IMG/VR virus record: IMGVR_UViG_3300046170_000036
Location: 1 to 32,883 of that record
Strand: one strand, 5' to 3'
DNA from: a virus
DNA length: 32,883 nucleotides
The translations under genes were made by a program, and so were the position numbers. Numbering within the stretch: the first letter of the stretch is position 1; every line of letters starts with the position of its first letter. Positions 5,381 through 26,427 of the stretch are shown piece after piece. Under the pieces are notes generated by a model. The model was not told where the DNA came from. It searched no databases and saw only the letters and a program-made list of their open reading frames with translations.

Positions 5381-5622
5381 GATGCGTTGCTTGCGATAAG
5401 ATAATGACAGACTACGAACTAACCAAAAAGTTTAGTAGTAGTGGTGAGTTCGTGGATATGTGTAATGAGTGTAGTCGTTACCTTGCTGATGATGACTTGA
5501 TAACAGTAGGTAACATGGACTATGCTACCCTTAGTGATCTAGAGGAGATACGAGATGTCGAACATGGGACGTTGGATTATGACACAGGAACAGAACAAGG
5601 AGATGAGGACGAATGGCTATGA
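5377..5622 (+). CDS. Small zinc-ribbon-like protein, 81 aa
   Basis: Two CxxC pairs (C3/C6 and C29/C32) with 22 residues between them fit a single zinc ribbon. The rest is acidic and ends in a run of Asp/Glu (GTEQGDEDEWL). It lies between helicase and polymerase and overlaps both (ATGA at the helicase stop; the polymerase start lies inside its end). It may bind replication proteins or DNA, but no family is recognised. Confidence 0.75.
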   Translation: MRCVACDKIMTDYELTKKFSSSGEFVDMCNECSRYLADDDLITVGNMDYATLSDLEEIRDVEHGTLDYDTGTEQGDEDEWL

Positions 5623-7302
5623 ACTTTCAGAAAGACAACAACTTGATCTCTCCTACTACGAATACTGTGTTCTTAGACATAGAGGCAGACGGCCTGAACC
5701 CTACGAAAGTACACTGCGTGGTTACAAAGAGATCGAACGAAGCTCACTTGACCCACTTATCTAGACGGAGTTTGATGGATGAACTGGCAAAAGGTGGACA
5801 GGTATGTGGTCATAATCTTATTGGCTACGATGTTTCCTGTGTTGTACAGGCTATGGGGTATACGCATACCTCAGCACAGAATTGTGGACACACTGGTACT
5901 TTCACGTCTCTTTCATCCTGACTTGGATGGTGGTCACAGCCTCGCTGCTTGGGGAACTAGGCTTGGATTCCCTAAAGGAGATCACACTGATTGGGAAGAA
6001 CTGTCTGAAGAAATGGTTGAGTACTGCAAGAGAGATGTGGATGTCACTCATAAACTACACGATGCACTGATGGCACAGATGCAGATGTTTGGATTCAGTA
6101 AGCACTGTGTTGATCTTGAGCACAGCGTTGCGTTCATCTGTAAGGATCAGGAAGACAACGGCTTTGAGTTTAACAAGAACGGTGCAGTAGAACTATACGA
6201 AGAACTTACTACCCGTATGCACAGGATAGAGAAAGATTTACAGCAAGTGTTCCCACCTATAGTAGAGGAGAGGATCAGTGATAAAACACAGAAGAGACTC
6301 AAGGACAAAGTTACGGTGTTCAATGTCGGTAGTAGACAACAGATTGCAGAGCGGCTTACTAGCAAGGGTGCTGTGTGGAAGGAACTCACTCCCGCAGGAA
6401 AACCAAAGGTTGATGAGGCTACACTTAAAAAGCAGACTCACATTCCAGAGGCAAAGATCATACTACGTTATCTTCTCTGCCAGAAACGAGCCTCTCAAGT
6501 TGACTCGTGGATTAAAGCAGTTGGCGAAGACAAGAGAATACATGGCAGAGTCAGGCACATCGGAGCTGTCACCGGACGGATGGCACACTCCGGTCCAAAC
6601 ATGGCTCAAGTTCCTGCTGTAAGGGCTGAGTACGGGAAGCAGTGTCGTGCGTTGTTTAACACACCTGATGGTCGTGTACTTGTTGGTGCTGATGCTAGTG
6701 GTCTTGAGCTACGTATGCTTGCACACTATATGAATGATGCTAACTACACCAACGAGATATTAACAGGTGATATACACACAGCTAACCAACATGCTGCTGG
6801 ACTAAAGACAAGAGATCAAGCCAAGACATTTATCTATGCGTTCTTGTACGGTGCAGGTGACGCTAAGATAGGCAGTGTTGTAGGTGGTAGTGCATCTCAT
6901 GGTAAGAAACTAAAAGCAGACTTTCTTGAGAACACACCCGCACTGGCAAAGCTACGTAAAGAAGTAACAAAGGATGCTGAGTCTGGTTTTCTTACTGGTC
7001 TTGACGGCAGACGTATACGTGTACGATCACAACACGCCGCACTGAACACGCTACTACAGGGTGCTGGTGCTGTGGTAATGAAGCAGGCTATCATTATCCT
7101 GTATGATTTGTTAGCCCGTGTTGACTTCAAGCTAGTCGCACAGGTACATGATGAGTGGCAGATAGAGTGCCGCCCAGAAGATGCAGACTTCATTGGGAAG
7201 TCATGTGTTAACGCAATGGTATTCGCAGGTGAACTCCTGCAACTGAACTGTCCGTTAGACGGAGAGTATAGAATTGGTAATAGTTGGGCAGATACCCACT
7301 AG
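5613..7302 (+). CDS. Family A DNA polymerase with 3'-5' exonuclease domain; interrupted by a one-base frameshift
   Basis: Replicative polymerase of the T7/Pol I type. The N-terminal exonuclease domain begins in the frame of 5613, with the FLDIEADGL motif (D22, E24) and GHNLIGYD. At 5833-5835 (TTT) one base too many is present: the domain continues in the +1 frame as PVLYRLWGIRIP, then the third exonuclease motif YCKRD and the whole polymerase domain. Polymerase motif A is DASGLELR (6691), motif B is RDQAKTFIYAFLYG with Tyr (codon 6835-6837) at the Pol I Phe762 position, and motif C is QVHDEW (about 7141-7158). Joined, it is about 562 aa, shorter than T7 gp5 (704). ATG 5613 has AAGGAG about 10 bases upstream; ATG 5619 (overlapping the previous stop) is the alternative. 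As written, no single frame gives a full polymerase. Confidence 0.88.
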
Positions 7303-10244: not shown

Positions 10245-10482
10245 AGGTAACTTTGGAAGCAAAGAAAACAACGACATAAAAACCTCTGAGTTTCTTGCGT
10301 TGTTATCAGCACGTAGTTTATGCTACGAGGAAGAAGAAAGACCTATCAAGTGTGTTGTTATTATGTATGAAGACGGAGAGGTATTTGAAGTCACAGCTAC
10401 AGAACAATACCCTGATGGTGTATACTTACTTTTAGGTTTGGCACAGGCAGCAATCATAAACGAAACTTTAGGAATAACTTAA
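10231..10482 (+). CDS. Unknown protein between DUF3310 and reductase genes, 83 aa
   Basis: Not recognised. The start overlaps the end of the DUF3310 gene by 14 bases and the TAA stop overlaps the A of the reductase ATG. The sequence looks like a small alpha/beta fold: a helix (SEFLALLSARSLCYEEE), two strands (IKCVVIMYEDG, EVFEVTAT) and a C-terminal helix (LLGLAQAAIINETLGIT). Confidence 0.7.
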   Translation: MKIVEGNFGSKENNDIKTSEFLALLSARSLCYEEEERPIKCVVIMYEDGEVFEVTATEQYPDGVYLLLGLAQAAIINETLGIT

Positions 10483-12354
10483 TGGATGCATATCAACAGT
10501 ACATACACAAGTCACGCTACGCACGCTACAATGCAAAAGAACAACGTCGAGAGACATGGGAAGAAACAGTTAATCGTTATGTTAACTATTGGGTAGACAA
10601 AGCAGACCTTAATGACTTTGAAGTATCTGAGATCTTCAAGGCTATACATGACCTAGATGTAATGCCTAGCATGAGAGCATTGATGACAGCGGGTGAAGCA
10701 CTAGACCGTGACAACGTAGCAGGTTTTAACTGTAGCTACTTACCTATTGATCACCCTAAAGCATTCGATGAAATGATGTACATTCTCATGTGTGGCACAG
10801 GTGTAGGCTTTAGTGTTGAGAGACAATACATAGCCAAGCTGCCTGAAGTTGCGGAGAAGTTTCATGAAACAGACACAGTTATTAATGTTGCGGATTCAAA
10901 GATCGGATGGGCGAAATCGTTTAGGGAACTGGTATCATTGTTGTATTCAGGTCAAATTCCCCAATGGGACATTAGCAGAGTACGATCTGCAGGTGCCGCA
11001 CTTAAAACTTTCGGAGGTCGTGCAAGTGGTCCAGAACCTCTCGTCGAACTATTCAAATTCACGTCCGGGTTGTTTCAAGGAGCGGCTGGACGAAAGCTTA
11101 CATCCATTGAATGCCACGATCTTTGCTGTAAGATCGCACAAATCGTAGTAGTAGGAGGAGTAAGACGATCAGCACTTATCTCACTATCTAACCTATCTGA
11201 TGACAGGTTACGCAGAGCTAAGACAGGTGAGTGGTATCATGCTAACCCACAACGTGCGCTCTCTAATAACTCTGCCTGCTACACAGAGAAGCCTGACTTT
11301 ATTGCTTACCTAGAAGAATGGAAAAGTTTATATGAATCCTACTCAGGAGAACGAGGTTTCTTCAGCAGAGTTGCTAGTCAAAAGCAAGCTGAAAGGAAAT
11401 GGCAGACGAGATGCTACCTACGATTTTGGAACTAATCCATGTAGTGAAATCATCCTCAGACCCAACCAGTTCTGCAATCTATCAGAAGTTGTTGTCAGGC
11501 CAGACGATACGCTCGCTAGTCTCAAACGAAAGGTACGCATTGCGGCTATCCTTGGAACTCTACAAGCTACCCTTACAGACTTTAGATACTTAAGGAGTAT
11601 TTGGAAGACAAACACAGAGGAAGAAGCTTTACTAGGTGTATCACTAACAGGTATCATGGATCATCCTTTACTATCAGGACGAGGGGACAATGCAAAGCTT
11701 AAGAAGTGGCTCACAGACATGCGAGAGGAAGCAATTGAGACTAACAAGCGGTGGGCTGAGAGACTTAACATTAATCCCTCTACAGCTATTACTGCGATTA
11801 AGCCTAGCGGTACTGTTAGTCAGTTGGTCGATAGTGCTTCTGGTATCCATCCTCGCTATAGCGAACAATATATACGAACAGTTAGAGCAGATTCTCGTGA
11901 CCCTCTTTGTGCTGTCTTAGAGGCTGCTGGTGTCCCTGTAGAGACAGATGTAAACAGTGCTAGTACTAAGGTATTCAGCTTCCCTATCGCCTCACCAGAG
12001 GGCGCTGTGACAGCCTCAGCTATGGGTGCGATAGAACAGTTGGATCTGTGGGAGTTGTATCAGGACTACTGGTGTGAGCACAAGCCATCAATGACTTGCT
12101 ACTATAGGGATCATGAGTTTCTTGAGGTAGGACAGTGGTTGTGGAACAAGTTCGATAAGGTATCAGGCGTTAGCTTCTTGCCCTACTCAGACCATGTATT
12201 CCAACAGGCTCCCTATCAACCCATTGATAAGAAAACCTACAAGCAAGCAGTAAAAGACTTCCCCACTGAGATCAACTGGGACATCAACGAGGAGTCTGAT
12301 ATGACTGAAGGCAGTCAGGAACTAGCTTGCACAGGTAACAACTGTGAGATCTAA
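10482..12354 (+). CDS. nrdJ: Adenosylcobalamin-dependent (class II) ribonucleotide reductase; interrupted by a one-base frameshift
   Basis: Reduces ribonucleotides to deoxyribonucleotides for phage DNA synthesis, using a B12 cofactor to start the radical. The monomeric type is indicated by GFNCSY (C84), NPCSE with the radical Cys at 11440-11442 and its Glu, the second disulfide Cys 11 residues on (NQFCNLSE), the GTVSQLVDSASGIHPRY segment and a C-terminal Cys pair with four residues between (ACTGNNCEI). Joined length is about 624 aa. The first frame (from 10482) carries the N-terminal half to QKQAER; at 11397-11399 (AAA) there is one base too many, and NGRRDATYDFGTNPCSE continues in the other frame. 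The ATG is preceded by AGGA. It is the last plus-strand gene; its stop interlocks with the stop of a minus-strand gene. Confidence 0.88.
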
Positions 12355-12530
12355 GACATAAAGAATATAGAGTAACCGTTAGACTTACCTACGTCCTCTG
12401 GCTTATCTTTAGAGTCATGGGGCGTAGGTATTCCTTCAGCTTGCATCTTCTTGATACGCTCTTTAGAACGCTGACACATACTGTGATAGTCAATAGAAGT
12501 ATAAGATACTGTGTGTTTGTCGTCTTTCAT
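12351..12530 (-). CDS. Unknown small basic protein, 59 aa, last gene of the late block
   Basis: ATG at 12530-12528 overlaps the TGA of the 1243-aa gene (ATGA), and the frame runs 59 codons to TAG at 12353-12351, overlapping the stop of the ribonucleotide reductase on the other strand by two bases. The product begins MKDDKHTVSYTSIDYHSMCQ and is Lys/Arg-rich in the middle (RSKERIKKM), ending NGYSIFFMS. The start coupling supports a real gene. Function unknown. Confidence 0.7.
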   Translation of the reverse strand: MKDDKHTVSYTSIDYHSMCQRSKERIKKMQAEGIPTPHDSKDKPEDVGKSNGYSIFFMS

Positions 12531-15500
12531 TCGTCTGTAAACCCCTTTATAGTTTTACCAATAATAGGTAATGACTCAAGTGATTCAGATGGTATAAGAT
12601 CTGGAACCTCTCCAGCCATTAAAGCACGAGCTACATCGGCTGTGTCTTCAAGCACTGCAGCAGGAAGAGTAGCACCTACAGGAGGCAGCATGTTATTCAT
12701 AAACGCTGTAGCAGGATCACTCATAAATTTATCGTACCCGTAATCGTTAGCTCCCATAGCACCAAAGGTAAATACAGAACCTATCTGGTACAGAGCACCT
12801 ATAGCTGCCTGCTCTGGGTCAGGAGCTTCACCTTTAATAACCTGCCTACCTTCATTAACAAGACCATAACCACCACCAGATAATATAATGTATCTCATTG
12901 CATTTTCTAGCGCTTGTTTCTTGTTACCATCTCTCCACTCTTTAAAGATTCTACGTTCCATCAAATCAAACTGCTTAATAGCAAAACCTTTTAACATATA
13001 AAACAAACGAGCATTAGGATTAGCTAAACCAAAAGCAGTCTGTGCTGCTGCGTTAATAGGTTGTAATCTAAACAAGTCAAACATAACAAGATCACGCACT
13101 AGCTCACTATTTGTGTTGCCAGCAGCTATGTCTCTTTTTAATTGATCTATCTCAGGCTTACTAAAACTGTATTGCCATTTATTATCAAAAGAATTATCGG
13201 CTATATCTTGTCTTGCTTTACGAAAAGAAGCACCCATGATACGGCTCTTACCAAACTGATCTAGCTTAGAAAACCCTGACCACTTCATAGACCACTCTAA
13301 CAAGGACTCACTAGCTTGTGCTGCATTTTCTAAAAACTTGTTACCACTAATGCGATCACCTAACAATTTCTGGTCTGTCCCTTTTCTAGCTTTACGTACA
13401 AACTCACCAAAAACTTGTCTTGCTAGTCCCATATCTTCAGGACTAAAAGCAATATCTCCTTTGTTAAACACAGCGCCTAATACGTTACGCAGACCTAATT
13501 CAAACGAGGCATTAAACAAGTCATGCACGTTCATCAAAGCACCATAAGGATTAGCAATAGTACCTACGTAGCCAAGACTACGTATTAACTCTAACTCATG
13601 CGACATTCCCTTGTTAGCGTTTATACCAAGATCGTCAATAATTTGTTTAGCATTACTAATCTGTACATCAGACAAGCCTTCACGCTTAAGAGCTTCTTCA
13701 ATAATACGATCATCAAACAACTTAAAAGAACCGGATTCCTTTGCTGCTGTCTGCTCTAAAGTTTTCTTTCCTTCAGCTACAAGAGGCTTACCGACAGTAC
13801 GAAAACCAAGTTGCTTGCCTAATTCCATACGTGTTAATGTCTGGCGTTGCCATCTCCAATGAGAATCAAAAATATTTTCATATTCTTTTTGTTCTGCTAC
13901 ATCTTTACCGGCATTTATTTTACGCCACTCCTGCATAGAAGGACGTTGAATATCTTTAGAAGCTGCATCTTCTGATTTAGCTTGGGCTTTTTGTCTAAAA
14001 GAACGGAGACTAAAATCATCAGCAGTAGACGTTACGTTAGAGTGCATCCACAAACGAGATAAATCACCAGCAGTTACCTCTCTACGATAACGCTTAGAAA
14101 ACTCAAGGTTGTCTTCAAAGAACTGATTAAGTCTATCCTCTGATCCTTTACCAATTTTACCCCTTGCTATGTTTATTGCAGCTTTAAGACGTTTTTCTCT
14201 AAATTCTTGAGACAAACGTGAGTTCATTACATCTAACAAAGCATCATTAAACTTTACGTTGTCTTGTGCTAACTCACGAAAAGGCTCCATACCTTTCCAC
14301 ATTTTATCTAATACAGTTTGACCACGAACAACACGATTCATTCCTCGTATAATACGCTCAGAAAAAGACTTACCTACTGTTTCTTCAGCTAGTGTAGCAA
14401 GAGGAGAAGCCAACCTACGTAACTTTACAACAGTGCTTTGTGCTTGTGGTATTGTTGTATTAACATCTTTCATAAGACGACCAGTAGTCATGTCTACTAA
14501 GTCTTGTCTTAAGAAAGACAACTCATCTAAGTTTTCAAATTGTTCGTTAAGTTTTTCCCTTAAAATTTTTATGTCTTTATTAGAGTTATAGACCTTATTA
14601 AACTGTTTCATGTTTACGCCCATATCAATAGCGTAATCACGCATACGTGTTAACATGCTTCCCAAGTCAGAAGGTAGTGCACCTTGTCTACCTACTGTGT
14701 CCCCTAAGTATTCTACTTCACGCATAAGTAATTGCGTAGCTAACTCATCATTAGTTAACTCAGCAGTAGGTCTAGTTACCTTAGCTTCCTGTAAAAGTTG
14801 TTCTTGTAAATTAACTTTTTGTTTGTTAAGTTCATCAACAGAATCAACTTGACGACCTAGTTGGGGATCAAAAATACTGTCAAAAATACGACCAACAATA
14901 GCACCGCCTGCTCCGTAGTACATACCTTTTTCAAGTCTGTCTGCTGTGTCCTCACCAATACCAAGACCATAAGCACCGGCTTCTAATCCACCAGCTACAG
15001 CAGAAGATGTTACACCCAGCGCACGTAGAGAATTAATAATACCTAAACTTGTTGGAAGAGCACCAGCTACTTCGCCATACAAAGCAGTGCGAGGACTAAG
15101 CTGAGAAAACTCATCCATTTCTTTACGTATACGTTTAAGTGCTACATCATACTCTTCACCAGACGCAAGAGCTTCTATTTCTTCACCAAAACCTAAAGCA
15201 AAACCTTGTGCTGCTACTCTTAAACCACCTTTAATATCTCTAGCTTGCCTTGCTCTTTTGTTAGCAAAGTATGTTTCAACAGGATCTTCAGGAATTGCTA
15301 CACTTCCTAGTTCTATTTTTTCTACTCTGCCTCTATTTAAATACTTTTCTACGGGATCAATAACAGGAGCAACAGTAGGTACAGGTTGCATAGCTGCCAT
15401 TTGTGTAGATAACAATTTTGATTCTATGCTAGGCGTTGATCCAATAACACGCTCAAGATAATTAGCTACAGGATCAGGCTGCATAGCTGCCATTTGAGTG

Positions 15501-16258
15501 GCTGCTAATTTAGACTCAAGACGCGGAGTAGACATAGGAGGTACAACTACAGGTTCACGCTGAGGCACAGTTACTTCTGCCAGACGTTGATCCATTGAAG
15601 TTGTGTAGTCAGTGTACGGAGCAGGTACTTGTTTTTGTTCACGTTGAGGTACAGTAACTTCATCTACTTTACCGGCTCTCTTAGGCACAGTAACTTCAGA
15701 AAGTAGTTGTTCAGGTACACGCTGTGCATCAACAGTTACTTCAGGAAAACGTCCCGCTCTAGGGGGAACAATAACATTGTTAAGATATTTTTCTACAGGA
15801 TCAACTTCTACTTTCTTTTGAGGTATAGGAACTTGCCCACGTTTTGTAGGTATAATAGGCTCAAGAACTTTTTTAGCATCTACTCGTACTTCTTGTAAAG
15901 TATCTTCAAGTTTTTTACGATCTATTTCGTTAGGAAACGTAGCTTGATAATCAGTAAGTTCTTTAGGTACTTCTATTATTTCTGAAAGCTCGTCTTCTCG
16001 TAGAGCACCGTAACGCTTAACAACTTCATCAACGGGTTGTTTAATAACAGTCGCTATTTGTTCAGCAGAGGCACCTAGTTTAAGGGCTTGTTCTACATAA
16101 AAGTCAACCGTTTTAGGATTTCTAACTTCTACCCCTGCTCGCCATGAGGAACCTAACACAGCTTTATTATAAGAAAGTAGCTCGTCTACTGAAACCCCAA
16201 ATCGTTTAGCAACAGCTTGTTTAGACTCGCCCGGTTTAATTTCATGGTGTAACTGCAT
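12527..16258 (-). CDS. Very large internal virion / DNA-ejection type protein with LysM-like N-terminus
   Basis: A 1243-aa protein, the largest in the window. Residues 1-50 resemble a LysM fold (EIKPGESKQAVAKRFGVSVD ... ELLSYN). Residues about 150-340 are a repeat-rich linker with several EVTVPQRE/EVTVPKRAGK units, two copies of TQMAAMQP and four PVEKYLN-like units. The rest (about 340-1243) is long, helical and soluble, with Ala/Gly-rich hydrophobic segments near 350-445 that could insert in a membrane. Size and position at the end of the late operon match T7 gp16, which enters the cell with the DNA. I see no convincing transglycosylase motif, so peptidoglycan binding rather than cutting is what the sequence supports. 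Confidence 0.7.
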   Translation of the reverse strand: MQLHHEIKPGESKQAVAKRFGVSVDELLSYNKAVLGSSWRAGVEVRNPKTVDFYVEQALKLGASAEQIATVIKQPVDEVVKRYGALREDELSEIIEVPKELTDYQATFPNEIDRKKLEDTLQEVRVDAKKVLEPIIPTKRGQVPIPQKKVEVDPVEKYLNNVIVPPRAGRFPEVTVDAQRVPEQLLSEVTVPKRAGKVDEVTVPQREQKQVPAPYTDYTTSMDQRLAEVTVPQREPVVVPPMSTPRLESKLAATQMAAMQPDPVANYLERVIGSTPSIESKLLSTQMAAMQPVPTVAPVIDPVEKYLNRGRVEKIELGSVAIPEDPVETYFANKRARQARDIKGGLRVAAQGFALGFGEEIEALASGEEYDVALKRIRKEMDEFSQLSPRTALYGEVAGALPTSLGIINSLRALGVTSSAVAGGLEAGAYGLGIGEDTADRLEKGMYYGAGGAIVGRIFDSIFDPQLGRQVDSVDELNKQKVNLQEQLLQEAKVTRPTAELTNDELATQLLMREVEYLGDTVGRQGALPSDLGSMLTRMRDYAIDMGVNMKQFNKVYNSNKDIKILREKLNEQFENLDELSFLRQDLVDMTTGRLMKDVNTTIPQAQSTVVKLRRLASPLATLAEETVGKSFSERIIRGMNRVVRGQTVLDKMWKGMEPFRELAQDNVKFNDALLDVMNSRLSQEFREKRLKAAINIARGKIGKGSEDRLNQFFEDNLEFSKRYRREVTAGDLSRLWMHSNVTSTADDFSLRSFRQKAQAKSEDAASKDIQRPSMQEWRKINAGKDVAEQKEYENIFDSHWRWQRQTLTRMELGKQLGFRTVGKPLVAEGKKTLEQTAAKESGSFKLFDDRIIEEALKREGLSDVQISNAKQIIDDLGINANKGMSHELELIRSLGYVGTIANPYGALMNVHDLFNASFELGLRNVLGAVFNKGDIAFSPEDMGLARQVFGEFVRKARKGTDQKLLGDRISGNKFLENAAQASESLLEWSMKWSGFSKLDQFGKSRIMGASFRKARQDIADNSFDNKWQYSFSKPEIDQLKRDIAAGNTNSELVRDLVMFDLFRLQPINAAAQTAFGLANPNARLFYMLKGFAIKQFDLMERRIFKEWRDGNKKQALENAMRYIILSGGGYGLVNEGRQVIKGEAPDPEQAAIGALYQIGSVFTFGAMGANDYGYDKFMSDPATAFMNNMLPPVGATLPAAVLEDTADVARALMAGEVPDLIPSESLESLPIIGKTIKGFTDE

Positions 16259-21168: not shown

Positions 21169-21816
21169 CTACGGAGTGTACCAGATGGTTTCTTCAGGAT
21201 GCTTTTGTGCGTCCAGAGCAATCGCGTCAGACAAAAACTTATCAGCAATACCAAAGTACTCAGGTGCTGATGTACCGCCTGTCTCGCCACGCTCACGAGC
21301 TAATAGAGCTACCGCCATGTGTATCACAGGTTGACTAGGTATAACTAGTTCATCTGTATCAGCACTCAACTCAGCGTTCCTAAGAGTACAGTTAAATCTC
21401 AAGCTGTACACACCATCAGGCTTAGGGTAAACGTCTACTTGAGTGTCACCACTAGCATCAACGCCGTTGTACGTGTAGTACTCAGGTGAGCCGCTAGGTG
21501 GTGATTGGTTCAAGTACTTATCGTTAAACCAGTGTTGAGTGTTGTACTGCATAAAAAGGTTTGAGGTGTCGTTAATTACGTCTAGTACCTTAATTTTATT
21601 TTGTGATCCAGTGAGTACGTAGTTAAAAATATCAGCAGACGTAGTTACCGTAAGGGTAGTCCTAAGTGCTGACCAATCCCAAGCATCCTCTACCATCTTT
21701 TTAGCGTCGTTAATAAAATCACCTACCATTTTACTGTAGGTATTATCATTAACACTAGACACCTCGTCTTCACGTAAGCGTCTTAGCACGTTATTTATTA
21801 AATTTAAATATGTCAT
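21169..21816 (-). CDS. Tail tubular protein A / head-tail adapter-like (T7 gp11)
   Basis: A 215-aa protein opening MTYLNLINNVLRRLREDEVS, a start I associate with head-tail adapters of T7-like marine phages (T7 gp11 is 196 aa). Helical N-terminal part (to about residue 55), then beta strands, then a helical end (VIHMAVALLARERGE, FLSDAIALD). It probably joins the portal to the tail nozzle. The close pairing with the downstream nozzle gene supports this. Confidence 0.72.
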   Translation of the reverse strand: MTYLNLINNVLRRLREDEVSSVNDNTYSKMVGDFINDAKKMVEDAWDWSALRTTLTVTTSADIFNYVLTGSQNKIKVLDVINDTSNLFMQYNTQHWFNDKYLNQSPPSGSPEYYTYNGVDASGDTQVDVYPKPDGVYSLRFNCTLRNAELSADTDELVIPSQPVIHMAVALLARERGETGGTSAPEYFGIADKFLSDAIALDAQKHPEETIWYTP

Positions 21817-21817
21817 A

Positions 21818-23281
21818 TTATACGTAACCTTTAAACATGCCCATGCCGCTGTTTCTTGTTATTAAATTATTTATTTCAACCATGTAATCTTGTTGTGGTA
21901 CAGAAAGAGGAGCATATGTAGGCGTTGAATAAGTGGGTATACTTTGAAAAGGTGTAAAAGAAGAACGTCCTGCTAACATACCGCTTGGATCGCCAATGCC
22001 ATCATCATCACCATCGCCGTCTCCGTCTCCATCACCATCTTTTGTAACATCATCTGTAGTTTCAGTGGTTTGTTTACTTTCAGTAGGAGTATTACCACCA
22101 CCATTACCACCACCATTTTTAGTAGAATAGTATGTATACATGTTTTCAAAAGTTATTTCTGTTTCACCATCTTTTGTAACATCATCTGTAGTTTCAGTAG
22201 TTTGTTTACTTTCTGTAGGAGTATCACCACCACCATTACCACCGTTAGTAACCGTACCACCATTACCACCACCATCAGTTTGTTTACTTTCAGTAGGAGG
22301 TGGAGTAGGAGTTGTAGTTGGAGTTGTAGTTGGAGGTGTAGGTGGAGTTACAACGTCCTTTTCTTTTTCTTCTGCTTCTGTTTTATCTTTTTCTTTTTCT
22401 TCTGGTTCTGATGTAGGTTTACTTTCTGTAGGAGGATTATCTTTAGTTGTATCAATAATAGAACCTTCACCAAAAATATCTACATTAATATCTATGTTTG
22501 GATCAAATGTGCTGTCTGGTCCAGCGTAATTACCTCCTACTGTATAAGTATCTTCAAGGCAATCTTCTTCGTCAAGTACTACTGAATCACCAATAGGATT
22601 ACCGTTTTCATCTACACGTACAAAAGTACAATCACCTACGTATATGTAATCGTGTTCTGGATCGTATTCCCAATCTTCTCCAAGGACATCAAGAGGTCCG
22701 TCAGTATCGTCACCGTCGTCACCACCACCATCTGTAGGTTTACTTTCTGAAGGGGGTAAAGTACCACCACCAGTAAAAATACCACCGCCGGTTGGGTCAA
22801 AAACATCACCACCACCAGAAGCACCACCGTCTGTTTGTTTACTTTCTGCAGGAGGAGGAAGAGTAAAAGTAGGAGGAGTAATATCAACTTCTACGCCAAA
22901 ACCTTCGTCATATGTACCGTCTTGATTTTGCGTTGTTGTATCAATAAGTTCACCAGTAGCGCCACCATAATCTACATATGCAGTTGAAGTAACATTACCA
23001 TCGCCATCGTAGCCGTAAACAGTATGTGGATTACCGTCAGCATCAACAGCATAGACTTCGTTTACGCCGTCACCGTTTAAATCGCCTGACGCCCAATCAA
23101 CAGCACCTTCTGGAAGATCACCAAAAATATTTCTAAGATAAGCATCTAGTGTTTTAAATTCTTGGTTGGCTGTCTCAGATGGGGACATAGTGCTAAATCT
23201 AGCCCTAAGATATTCTAGTAGTTCAGCAAGGGTGTAGCCTTCAACTACATCATCCATTGTAGGAAGAATGTCTTCTGCCAT
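21818..23281 (-). CDS. Low-complexity repeat protein with Ca-binding-like motifs, 487 aa
   Basis: Residues 1-60 are an acidic helical head (MAEDILPTMDDVVEGYTLAE). Residues about 65-100 carry two acidic loops, DLNGDGVNE and DADGN...YDGDGN, that look like EF-hand or dockerin-type calcium sites. The middle is Pro/Thr/Gly/Asp-rich with at least six (P/T)(A/S/T)ESK(Q/P)T units and Gly-Gly-Asn runs, including a 27-residue duplicated block (22032-22112 / 22164-22244 at DNA level). The C-terminus (about 445-487) is a short non-repetitive piece ending MFKGYV. I do not recognise a family. It lies between the holin and tail adapter genes, so it is late; a flexible virion or secreted protein is possible. 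Its extended acidic linkers and lack of a signal peptide leave the role open. Confidence 0.7.
   Translation of the reverse strand: MAEDILPTMDDVVEGYTLAELLEYLRARFSTMSPSETANQEFKTLDAYLRNIFGDLPEGAVDWASGDLNGDGVNEVYAVDADGNPHTVYGYDGDGNVTSTAYVDYGGATGELIDTTTQNQDGTYDEGFGVEVDITPPTFTLPPPAESKQTDGGASGGGDVFDPTGGGIFTGGGTLPPSESKPTDGGGDDGDDTDGPLDVLGEDWEYDPEHDYIYVGDCTFVRVDENGNPIGDSVVLDEEDCLEDTYTVGGNYAGPDSTFDPNIDINVDIFGEGSIIDTTKDNPPTESKPTSEPEEKEKDKTEAEEKEKDVVTPPTPPTTTPTTTPTPPPTESKQTDGGGNGGTVTNGGNGGGDTPTESKQTTETTDDVTKDGETEITFENMYTYYSTKNGGGNGGGNTPTESKQTTETTDDVTKDGDGDGDGDGDDDGIGDPSGMLAGRSSFTPFQSIPTYSTPTYAPLSVPQQDYMVEINNLITRNSGMGMFKGYV
22032..22244. repeat. 81-bp imperfect direct repeat inside the low-complexity gene
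   Basis: 22032-22112 and 22164-22244 are near-identical, 132 bases apart, with about three mismatches. They encode the T-E-S-K-Q-T-T-E-T-T-D-D-V-T-K-D-G block twice. This is a recent in-frame duplication and a likely site of length variation between relatives. Confidence 0.75.
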
Positions 23282-23283
23282 AA

Positions 23284-23661
23284 TTACTTACCACCCTTTA
23301 GCTGCATCAGCTTGTCAGCACCACGTATGCCAAAGCTGGCTGTGACTGCAACGTACAAAAGATATTGATACCACTCAGGTAGCTTTCCTAGCTCTGCAAA
23401 GGCAATACCTACGCGGCCAATGATATCAAGATCGTTCATACCTACGCCCCACATAATAGCTATCACAGGCGCACTCAGGACTACTGTGAACCACTCGTCT
23501 TTCCACGAGGATGCACTAGCTTGTGCCATGTGCTGTTCCCAAGATGCTGTGTTCTGTATTACTTGCATCTTAGCTACGTGTTTAGCTTGTGACTGCTCGT
23601 GACGATTGCTCATCCAAGTCTTAGCAAGTCCAGCAATAGGACTAATCAGGGCTTGCCACAC
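23284..23661 (-). CDS. GTA holin-like three-segment membrane protein, 125 aa
   Basis: The product opens MWQALISPIAGLAKTWMSNR, with a charged coiled segment at about 20-56 (HEQSQAKHVAKMQVIQN), then hydrophobic spans at about 58-76 (FTVVLSAPVIAIMWGVG) and 98-112 (LLYVAVTASFG). This is the pattern of PF11351-type 'GTA holin, 3TM' proteins. It would help form the membrane hole that ends infection. The GTG start at 23661 follows directly after the stop of the second holin-like gene, so they act as a pair. No endolysin is adjacent. Confidence 0.65.
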   Translation of the reverse strand: MWQALISPIAGLAKTWMSNRHEQSQAKHVAKMQVIQNTASWEQHMAQASASSWKDEWFTVVLSAPVIAIMWGVGMNDLDIIGRVGIAFAELGKLPEWYQYLLYVAVTASFGIRGADKLMQLKGGK

Positions 23662-24628: not shown

Positions 24629-26427
24629 TTATTCTCCTTTTAGTGCCGCTACTTCGGCTTTGAGTTGTTCAATCATTATTTGTTGCTCTTGGATGGCTCC
24701 TGTCAAAACCGCTACAAACTTCATGTAGTCAACGCCGTACTTTGGATCGTCGCCTTCTTCCATAGGCATCGCACGATTAGCAAATTCCGGAGTCTCTAAC
24801 AGTTCTTGAGCAATAAATCCGTTGTCTTCTGTTCCATCAGCTTTCCATGAATACTTGCGAGGCTTTAGCTTCATTACATCAGCAAGCGCGTTATCGTAAT
24901 CTCTAATGTTTTCTTTAAAACGAACGTCTGATGATGGTGTAAAGGAAGTTGCGTTGTTCAGCGTAGTTATTGAACCTACCGTGCCATTGGGATTAACAAA
25001 AGCCATGTGAGTTTGGGTTGAAGTTTGGTTTCTTGCCGTGGTAATCATCCCGTTTGAACCAAGCTGTATGCCTTCATCGCCTGCTGAGATTGTAGAGGTT
25101 ACTCCAACCAGCACGTTACCAGAGCTATCAATACGCATACGCTCTGAGCCGTTGTAGTTACTGTTTGCTGATTGCGTCCTAAATATAATTTTGTTTTTAC
25201 TGGCAGTACTGGAGCCTACACAATCAAGATAAAGGCCGTCTACTGCACCAACTGCGGCTTGTTGAGACTCTGTACCATCAAGAATAAGAGCGTTAGTGTC
25301 TGTTCCTCCTATGTTTATAAACTTAGCCCAACCAGAAGAACTTGTAGGACTCGCAGTGCCAATACCTACGTTACCAGAGCTATTAATCCGCATACGCTCT
25401 GTTCTAGTACCGGAACTGGTTGGGGCAAAGACTAAAGCCCCACTTTGAGAGCCTGCCGTATTACTTTCAATCAGCCCACCAATGTATCCATACTCAGTCA
25501 TGTTACCGGACGAATTATTCATGTTCATCCCGTATCCAGACCCACTGCCTACAACATTCGACGGCCTAGCAGTCGCCACACAAGCATACCTAGGTGACGT
25601 TGACGTGCTACTAGATTTTGCCAAAATAGGAATAACAGCCCCTTCAACATTTAGCTTGTAAGAAGAATCAATGGATGAAGTGCCAATGCCTACGTCACCT
25701 GAGCCATCAATACGCATACGCTCTGTGTTGCTGGTAAAAAACGTAACAGGGTTTGCTGTGAGGTTAGCCACTCTAAACTGGCTAGAGCTTGCGTAGAGGT
25801 AGCCGTAAGTTGACCCTCCAGCTTTAAGCTCAATCGCGCTATCTGATGTGCCATCTACATCAATAAGCCCCCTACCTGAAGAAGCCAATGCGCCAGCACT
25901 TGTAGAGTTCACCAACAAGTTACCAGAGCTATCAATACGCATACGCTCTGAGCCTGCAGTATGAAAATTTAAATTATCAGTCCCATGCCCGTACTCTATA
26001 AGCCCCACACCATTACTATCTGGATCACCAAAACGTAGTTGGATGCCTTCATTTGCTGGAGTCAAAAACTGCAAAATAGCCGTGCTGTCATCTTCAATAG
26101 TAAGCACAGAATTTGCATGACTATCTACTGTACCAGCAGAACCTTTAGAAAGGTGTAAGCGCGGCCCTGAATCAGGACTCGTAGTGCCGATGCCAACATT
26201 CTCTGAGCTATCAATCGTAATCGCAATGCTTGTGGCGTTATCGTCGATGCCTGTGGAGGTGAATGTACCCGTAGTCAAACTAGTAGGGTTTGTTCCAACC
26301 TCAATAACAGTACCGCTTGCGTTTTCTGTGTAGAGGCGCTTATTAGTTAAGTCCAGCGCAGGTTCACCCTGAACAAGATCACTTGCGCTGGTGCGCCTGA
26401 ACCGTTCTTTAGCTTAATTGTAGTCAT
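24629..26427 (-). CDS. Tail fibre/spike with Peptidase S74 intramolecular chaperone; interrupted by a one-base frameshift
   Basis: The true start is ATG 26427-26425, coupled to the upstream fibre stop (TAATG). It opens MTTIKLKNGSGAP, the usual fibre head. At 26387-26388 one base is missing: the frame closes after MTTIKLKNGSGAPAQVILFR, while SDLVQGEPALDLTNKRLYTE continues in the next frame. The shaft holds repeated ERMRIDSSGNV...G units. The C-terminal 105 residues are a Peptidase S74 domain with the Ser-Lys pair in SDVRFKENI, then LKPRKYSW and GFIAQELLE. This domain helps fibre trimers fold and then cuts itself off. It is the likely receptor-binding protein; a separate 549-aa reading from TTG 26278 is a caller artefact. 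Confidence 0.82.
25115..25953. repeat. Repeated ~32-bp shaft element in the S74 fibre gene (four copies)
   Basis: Near-identical copies of a stretch containing (AGAGCTATCAATACGCATAC)GCTCTG occur at about 25115-25150, 25371-25402, 25692-25726 and 25917-25953, each encoding ERMRIDSSGNV. They mark repeating shaft units and are likely sites of recombination and length change. Confidence 0.8.

Follow-up and report, generated by a model that had tools for sequence, protein, structure and literature searches.

The window analysed here is a single virus record of 32,883 bases, whose major capsid protein (MCP) and portal are distant from those of cultured phages, with all matches below 60% identity. 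Its late genes form a tightly packed cluster on the minus strand, running from portal, scaffold, MCP, a coiled-coil fibre, an S74 fibre, a DUF7936 protein and a TM protein to a holin-like gene, the open reading frame studied in this work (hereafter X), an SU10-type tail adaptor (PF24175), a nozzle-like protein and three large proteins. X (positions 21818-23281, minus strand) encodes 487 aa; read on the plus strand, this stretch is rich in stops. A preliminary description had reported a low-complexity frame of this length between holin and tail genes; both the frame and its placing are borne out, with the strand now assigned as minus. X is separated by 2 nt from the holin-like gene (23284-23661, minus strand; phrog_2524), which forms the left border of the slot, and by 1 nt from the adaptor (21169-21816, minus strand; PF24175, E 3.7e-14), which forms the right one. 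The protein is strongly acidic, with 100 D/E against 23 K/R and a net charge of -77, is rich in Gly (70), Thr (67) and Pro (39), and contains few hydrophobic residues and no hydrophobic segment.

Direct searching with X recovered relatives in 11 IMG/VR loci, and further ones were reached through the conserved adaptor, using the best 80 loci of at least 595 matching contig stretches. The adaptor is 80-100% identical across these best 80 loci, and the holin-like protein shows 98-100% identity among the nearest relatives. Wherever a locus shows both flanks, the genes run holin-like gene, X, adaptor, with 1.4-3.8 kb between the holin-like gene and the adaptor. In the distant relatives L052, L053, L084, L085, L090 and L091, the slot holds two tandem genes, most ending in an anchor-like segment, and several of the first genes carry a long Gly-rich hydrophobic domain that is membrane-active in appearance.

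The preliminary description assigned X to no known family, and our searches agree: Pfam, NCBIfam and PHROGs gave nothing reliable. NCBIfam returned no match, and none of the three collections matched X to a tail fibre or receptor-binding family. Weak low-complexity matches to a PHROG "DnaD-like helicase loader" (E 5e-4) and to Pfam SNAPC2 were rejected, and PHROG matches of the relative L011 were likewise set aside. Using X, a Cys-rich sister allele and a short allele as queries, tblastn against 50,697 phage records found no match; in two scans that looked for the ESK-type protein and its N-terminal head, bacterial and archaeal genomes yielded none either. Structure searches did not find a known receptor-binding fold in X.

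Elsewhere in the window, the genes for ribonucleotide reductase (10482-12354) and DNA polymerase (5613-7302) are each broken into two overlapping frames. Because five relatives have the reductase as one ORF of 623-641 aa, the splits in the window appear to be frameshifts, from sequencing error or decay. Positions 12527-16258 encode a 1243-aa probable internal virion protein with a LysM-like start (HEIKPGESKQAVAKRFGVSVDELLSYNK, judged by eye); no match to it was detected in G005, G006, G008 or G009, some of which are partial contigs.

Modular architecture of X

AlphaFold2 predicts order at residues about 9-107 of X (pLDDT mostly about 70-94) and, near the C-terminus, a short helix at 466-478, with most of residues 110-440 disordered apart from a moderately confident hairpin. 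The N-terminal head (residues 1-107; 22961-23281, minus strand) is predicted to comprise three helices and four strands, and its delineation is consistent with homologous heads and with dN/dS. Within it lies a calcium-type loop of the form DxNxDGxxE, DLNGDGVNE (residues 67-75; 23057-23083, minus strand), a pattern that appears 1.4% of the time when residues 1-130 are shuffled. The loop is conserved in 19 homologous heads, among which D67, L68, G70, D71, G72 and N74 are invariant, and the DADGN/DGDGN turns of the head are also kept.

The preliminary description had proposed several calcium loops. One true loop is present at D67-E75, but the others belong to a GD-repeat acidic tract (residues 415-428; 21998-22039, minus strand). 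An EF-hand or dockerin is excluded, since loop position 12 is Ala78, invariant in 19/19 heads, rather than Glu or Asp. The loop resembles that of FG-GAP/integrin-alpha repeats (PF13517): the pattern of D67, N69, D71, G72 and E75 is conserved, with four predicted strands around it, and FG-GAP propellers occur among the weak Foldseek matches of X, as they do in profile searches. In contrast to FG-GAP propellers, however, the head contains a single blade-like unit, and every score lies below significance. The Pfam match of the head to FG-GAP_3 is sub-threshold (E 0.0047; 17.9 bits against a gathering cut-off of 26.9), ITFG2 appears in the profile search at E 0.36, and Foldseek with either the full model or the head alone gave no match at E <= 0.001. 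The top Foldseek matches (Ugi, ICL2 and LolA) are not credible. From the conserved loop, calcium binding by the head is plausible, though kinship with FG-GAP stays below threshold.

Downstream of the head lies an exchangeable module II (residues 107-145; 22847-22963, minus strand), followed by a low-complexity region punctuated by ESK boxes of the pattern [PTSA]ESK[QP]T. The preliminary description counted six or more such units; six are present, and 0/2000 residue shuffles of X held even one. On the minus strand, these are box 1 (PPAESKQT, residues 143-150; 22832-22855), box 2 (PPSESKPT, 176-183; 22733-22756), box 3 (PPTESKPT, 283-290; 22412-22435), box 4 (PPTESKQT, 328-335; 22277-22300), box 5 (TPTESKQT, 354-361; 22199-22222) and box 6 (TPTESKQT, 398-405; 22067-22090). 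In every box of the window, L001 and L002, ESK is followed by Q, P or T. In L004, L008, L010 and L011 it is followed by R nearly throughout, which gives the impression of concerted evolution among the copies of one protein.

Between boxes 2 and 3 lies a central module (residues 200-282, EDWEYDPEHDYIYVGDCTFVRVDENG...FGEGSIIDTTKD; 22436-22684, minus strand), which is supported by conservation, dN/dS and structure prediction. It contains two Cys, is 74-99% identical in ESK-type relatives, and includes the predicted hairpin at 210-243, with pLDDT about 80 over residues 212-223. Alignment of relatives also reveals a conserved ITFENMYTYY motif (residues 373-389; 22115-22165, minus strand).

The C-terminal anchor (residues 442-487, FTPFQ..P.Y......PQQDYM.EINNLI.RN...MFKGYV; 21821-21958, minus strand) contains the predicted helix. 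Among 4917 ORFs, an anchor HMM matches slot genes only, at their C-termini, including both genes of two-gene slots. The family-wide pattern, F-x-P-F..G..Y....P....DYM.E(I/L)(N/D)N.I.R...(M/L)F-x-G, is common to proteins with unrelated heads. A second C-terminal form, DPQLL.R.xFPITDFLAGLFTG, follows a poly-Gly linker in many alleles. Both ends of X are thus predicted to be ordered, as the preliminary description had it, although it overlooked the central module. Its "two-headed" protein is not supported: the N-terminal part is an exchangeable folded module, and the protein ends in a short anchor that also occurs under unrelated heads. The layout is better read as head-stalk-anchor.

Whole-ORF replacement and mosaicism at a fixed slot

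In the nearest relatives, portal, MCP, holin-like protein and adaptor are 93-100% identical, and X matches the S74 tail fibre in variability. G005, for instance, shares with the window an MCP and a holin-like protein at 100% identity, a portal at 99% and an adaptor at 98%, and no homologue of X was detected there; its slot holds an unrelated Cys-rich protein of 900 aa. Homology between the two stops at the X start codon and returns exactly at the adaptor ATG. Similarly, L008 and L040 match at 99% of DNA positions as far as base 683, with X beginning at 678, and return to that level from base 2310, with the adaptor beginning at 2311; the X proteins in between are almost unrelated (coverage 0.07). 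The S74-chaperone tail fibre (24629-26278 in the window) is itself 26-39% identical between genomes with near-identical capsid genes, with short inner patches at 94-98% DNA identity.

Among contig pairs whose adaptors are at least 97% identical, 30/43 share less than 30% of X. By ungapped extension, 170/177 contig pairs lose homology no more than 10 nt from the X start, and 113/177 regain it no more than 10 nt from the adaptor ATG; indels could stop such an extension early, and protein comparison of X agrees with it. Chimeric assembly was rejected as an explanation, since individual alleles turn up in more than one metagenome (e.g. L044/L045/L046 and L063/L065/L066). In L006 and L121, the holin-like protein is 98-100% identical to that of the window and the adaptor only 63-64%: exchange can reach past X into the adaptor.

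Alleles of X range from about 200 to 1340 aa and are mosaics of interchangeable heads, repetitive stalks and a C-terminal anchor. The window head also occurs on the otherwise dissimilar Cys-rich proteins of L005, L006 and L030. L001 is the nearest overall relative of the window protein, yet its module II is of another type, and it is L008 that matches there. Synonymous divergence between the window and L001 is 0-0.05 in residues 146-330 and 0.3-0.7 in the adjoining segments. Of the four breakpoints between these two sequences, two fall at ESK boxes: nucleotide identity resumes at box 1 after the replaced segment and falls from box 4. As the six boxes make up about 10-16% of the protein, a role for them as recombination sites is only suggestive.

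Stalks differ in kind. The window carries ESK boxes, Gly-rich sequence and the GD tract, and most sister alleles carry CPxG...C repeats; the stalk of L052 is a tandem CPEGKEYNTELGKC repeat and that of L053 consists of PDVD repeats, with head and anchor common to both. The number of cysteines is even in 38/42 full-length alleles with at least four Cys, though these alleles are related and do not represent 42 independent trials. The even counts suggest disulphides and an extracellular life.

Despite this turnover, the ordered modules are under purifying selection. dN/dS is 0.28-0.41 for the head (against the homologous heads of L001, L002, L005 and L006) and 0.22-0.40 for the central module where measurable, values of about 0.2-0.4 that indicate maintained protein domains. 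The constraint in relatives to which the preliminary description had tied its reading is therefore present.

X is thus a hypervariable modular protein at a fixed position, replaced as a whole ORF, mosaic within, and ending in a shared C-terminal segment. The simplest account of these sequence patterns is that its alleles are old, highly diverged, and moved by recombination in the conserved flanks. The swapping of X at a defined slot, together with the shared C-terminal segment, is a stronger result than any reading of X as an adhesin.

Candidate roles for the slot protein

The preliminary description proposed a new tail or surface adhesin. The adaptor-side slot, the allelic variability and the head-stalk-anchor layout fit such a role, but the known fibre and receptor-binding families are unmatched. 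From the late tail cluster, the docking-like constant C-terminus, the freely changing stalks, the replaceable folded head and the receptor-like polymorphism, we infer that X is a virion appendage of the short tail or neck, with its C-terminus docked near the adaptor and a variable stalk and head contacting the host, a reading that we hold with moderate confidence.

In such an appendage, the C-terminal peptide, an aromatic/proline stretch and an amphipathic helix ending in (M/L)F-x-G, would dock on a conserved part of the virion, and the likeliest candidate is the adaptor/nozzle, which is encoded immediately downstream. Acidic, disordered repeats (ESK boxes, Gly/Pro/Thr and the GD tract, or Cys-rich units in sister alleles) would serve as spacer or stalk, and contact with the host surface may fall to the small, exchangeable domain at the N-terminus, which carries the calcium-type loop. 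Diversity of host surfaces would then select for many ancient X alleles in circulation, with whole alleles passing from genome to genome through recombination in the conserved flanking genes, and heads and stalk segments reshuffled by recombination within linkers.

Two known systems offer partial parallels. In SU10, the adaptor bears long tail fibres docked by their N-termini (PMC9509320). Like the gene for an SU10/T7-type fibre, X lies beside the adaptor in the late cluster and combines a constant, docking-type end with a hypervariable remainder, although for X the docking itself is putative. In contrast to such fibres, any docking of X would be C-terminal, which is the opposite polarity and counts against the appendage, and X lacks a trimeric coiled-coil or beta-helix signature and a sequence or fold match. 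That the phage already has two fibres, the coiled-coil fibre and the S74 fibre, also counts against it. The hypervariable "metaviromic islands" of marine phages are rich in host-recognition genes (PMC3909814), and as at the X locus, a gene beside the tail module varies wildly while the rest of the genome is conserved. X differs from these in being a sharp-bordered whole-ORF swap without a Pfam family, with its constant part C-terminal rather than N-terminal.

By analogy of layout, the nearest anatomical precedent for X is T7 gp7.3, an ejected protein that has a disordered N-terminus and is held at the adaptor/nozzle junction by its C-terminus (PMC11784390). On it rests the main rival to the appendage, in which X belongs to the tail channel or is ejected, in the manner of gp7.3 or the core proteins. 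Its C-terminus would then sit at the adaptor-nozzle junction, and its flexible N-terminal part, varying to match host envelope factors, would pass into the periplasm at infection. X shares with gp7.3 a short ordered C-terminal segment and a long disordered N-terminal stretch, probably in the same adaptor/nozzle neighbourhood, and some alleles have Gly-rich hydrophobic middle domains. Furthermore, some internal virion genes of this lineage are highly variable too, and high variability is therefore no proof in itself of exposure at the surface. Several features nonetheless make this alternative unlikely. gp7.3 is small and internal, with a basic N-terminus along the DNA; the window protein is 487 aa and strongly acidic, alleles reach about 1340 aa, and the family is polymorphic, with folded heads and often dozens of Cys, mostly in even number.

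It is less probable again that X is a non-virion late protein, such as an auxiliary factor for lysis or envelope disruption that is produced together with the adjacent holin. X does directly follow the holin-like gene, almost without a gap, and no recognisable endolysin was found among the genes scanned, but the mostly disordered window protein has neither signal peptide nor enzyme domain, nor any hydrophobic stretch, and receptor-like polymorphism is not expected of lysis proteins. Least probable is a surface decoration or decoy against host defence, in which a very acidic, low-complexity tract, with stalk repeats that vary freely between close relatives, would shield the particle without specific receptor binding, since the head and central module are folded or conserved and constrained beyond the need of a passive shield.

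Extending the appendage reading from the window to the family, we tentatively propose, as a possibility rather than an expectation, that X represents an undescribed class of polymorphic, C-terminally tethered appendages, encoded by one or two genes per genome and 200-1340 aa long, in which shuffled folded heads and disulphide-rich or low-complexity stalks sit on a constant anchor, forming a second, serotype-like host-recognition locus beside the ordinary tail fibres. A search of open-licence papers did not find such a locus described. If the proposal is correct, a widespread uncultured lineage, represented by at least 595 contig stretches with the adaptor, would have a serotype-like locus, marked out by two conserved genes at its borders and readable in any metagenome. 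It would become possible to test directly and in bulk which phage gene follows the diversity of host strains, and the known parts of short-tailed phages would gain a modular, C-terminally anchored appendage, possibly stabilized by calcium and disulphides.
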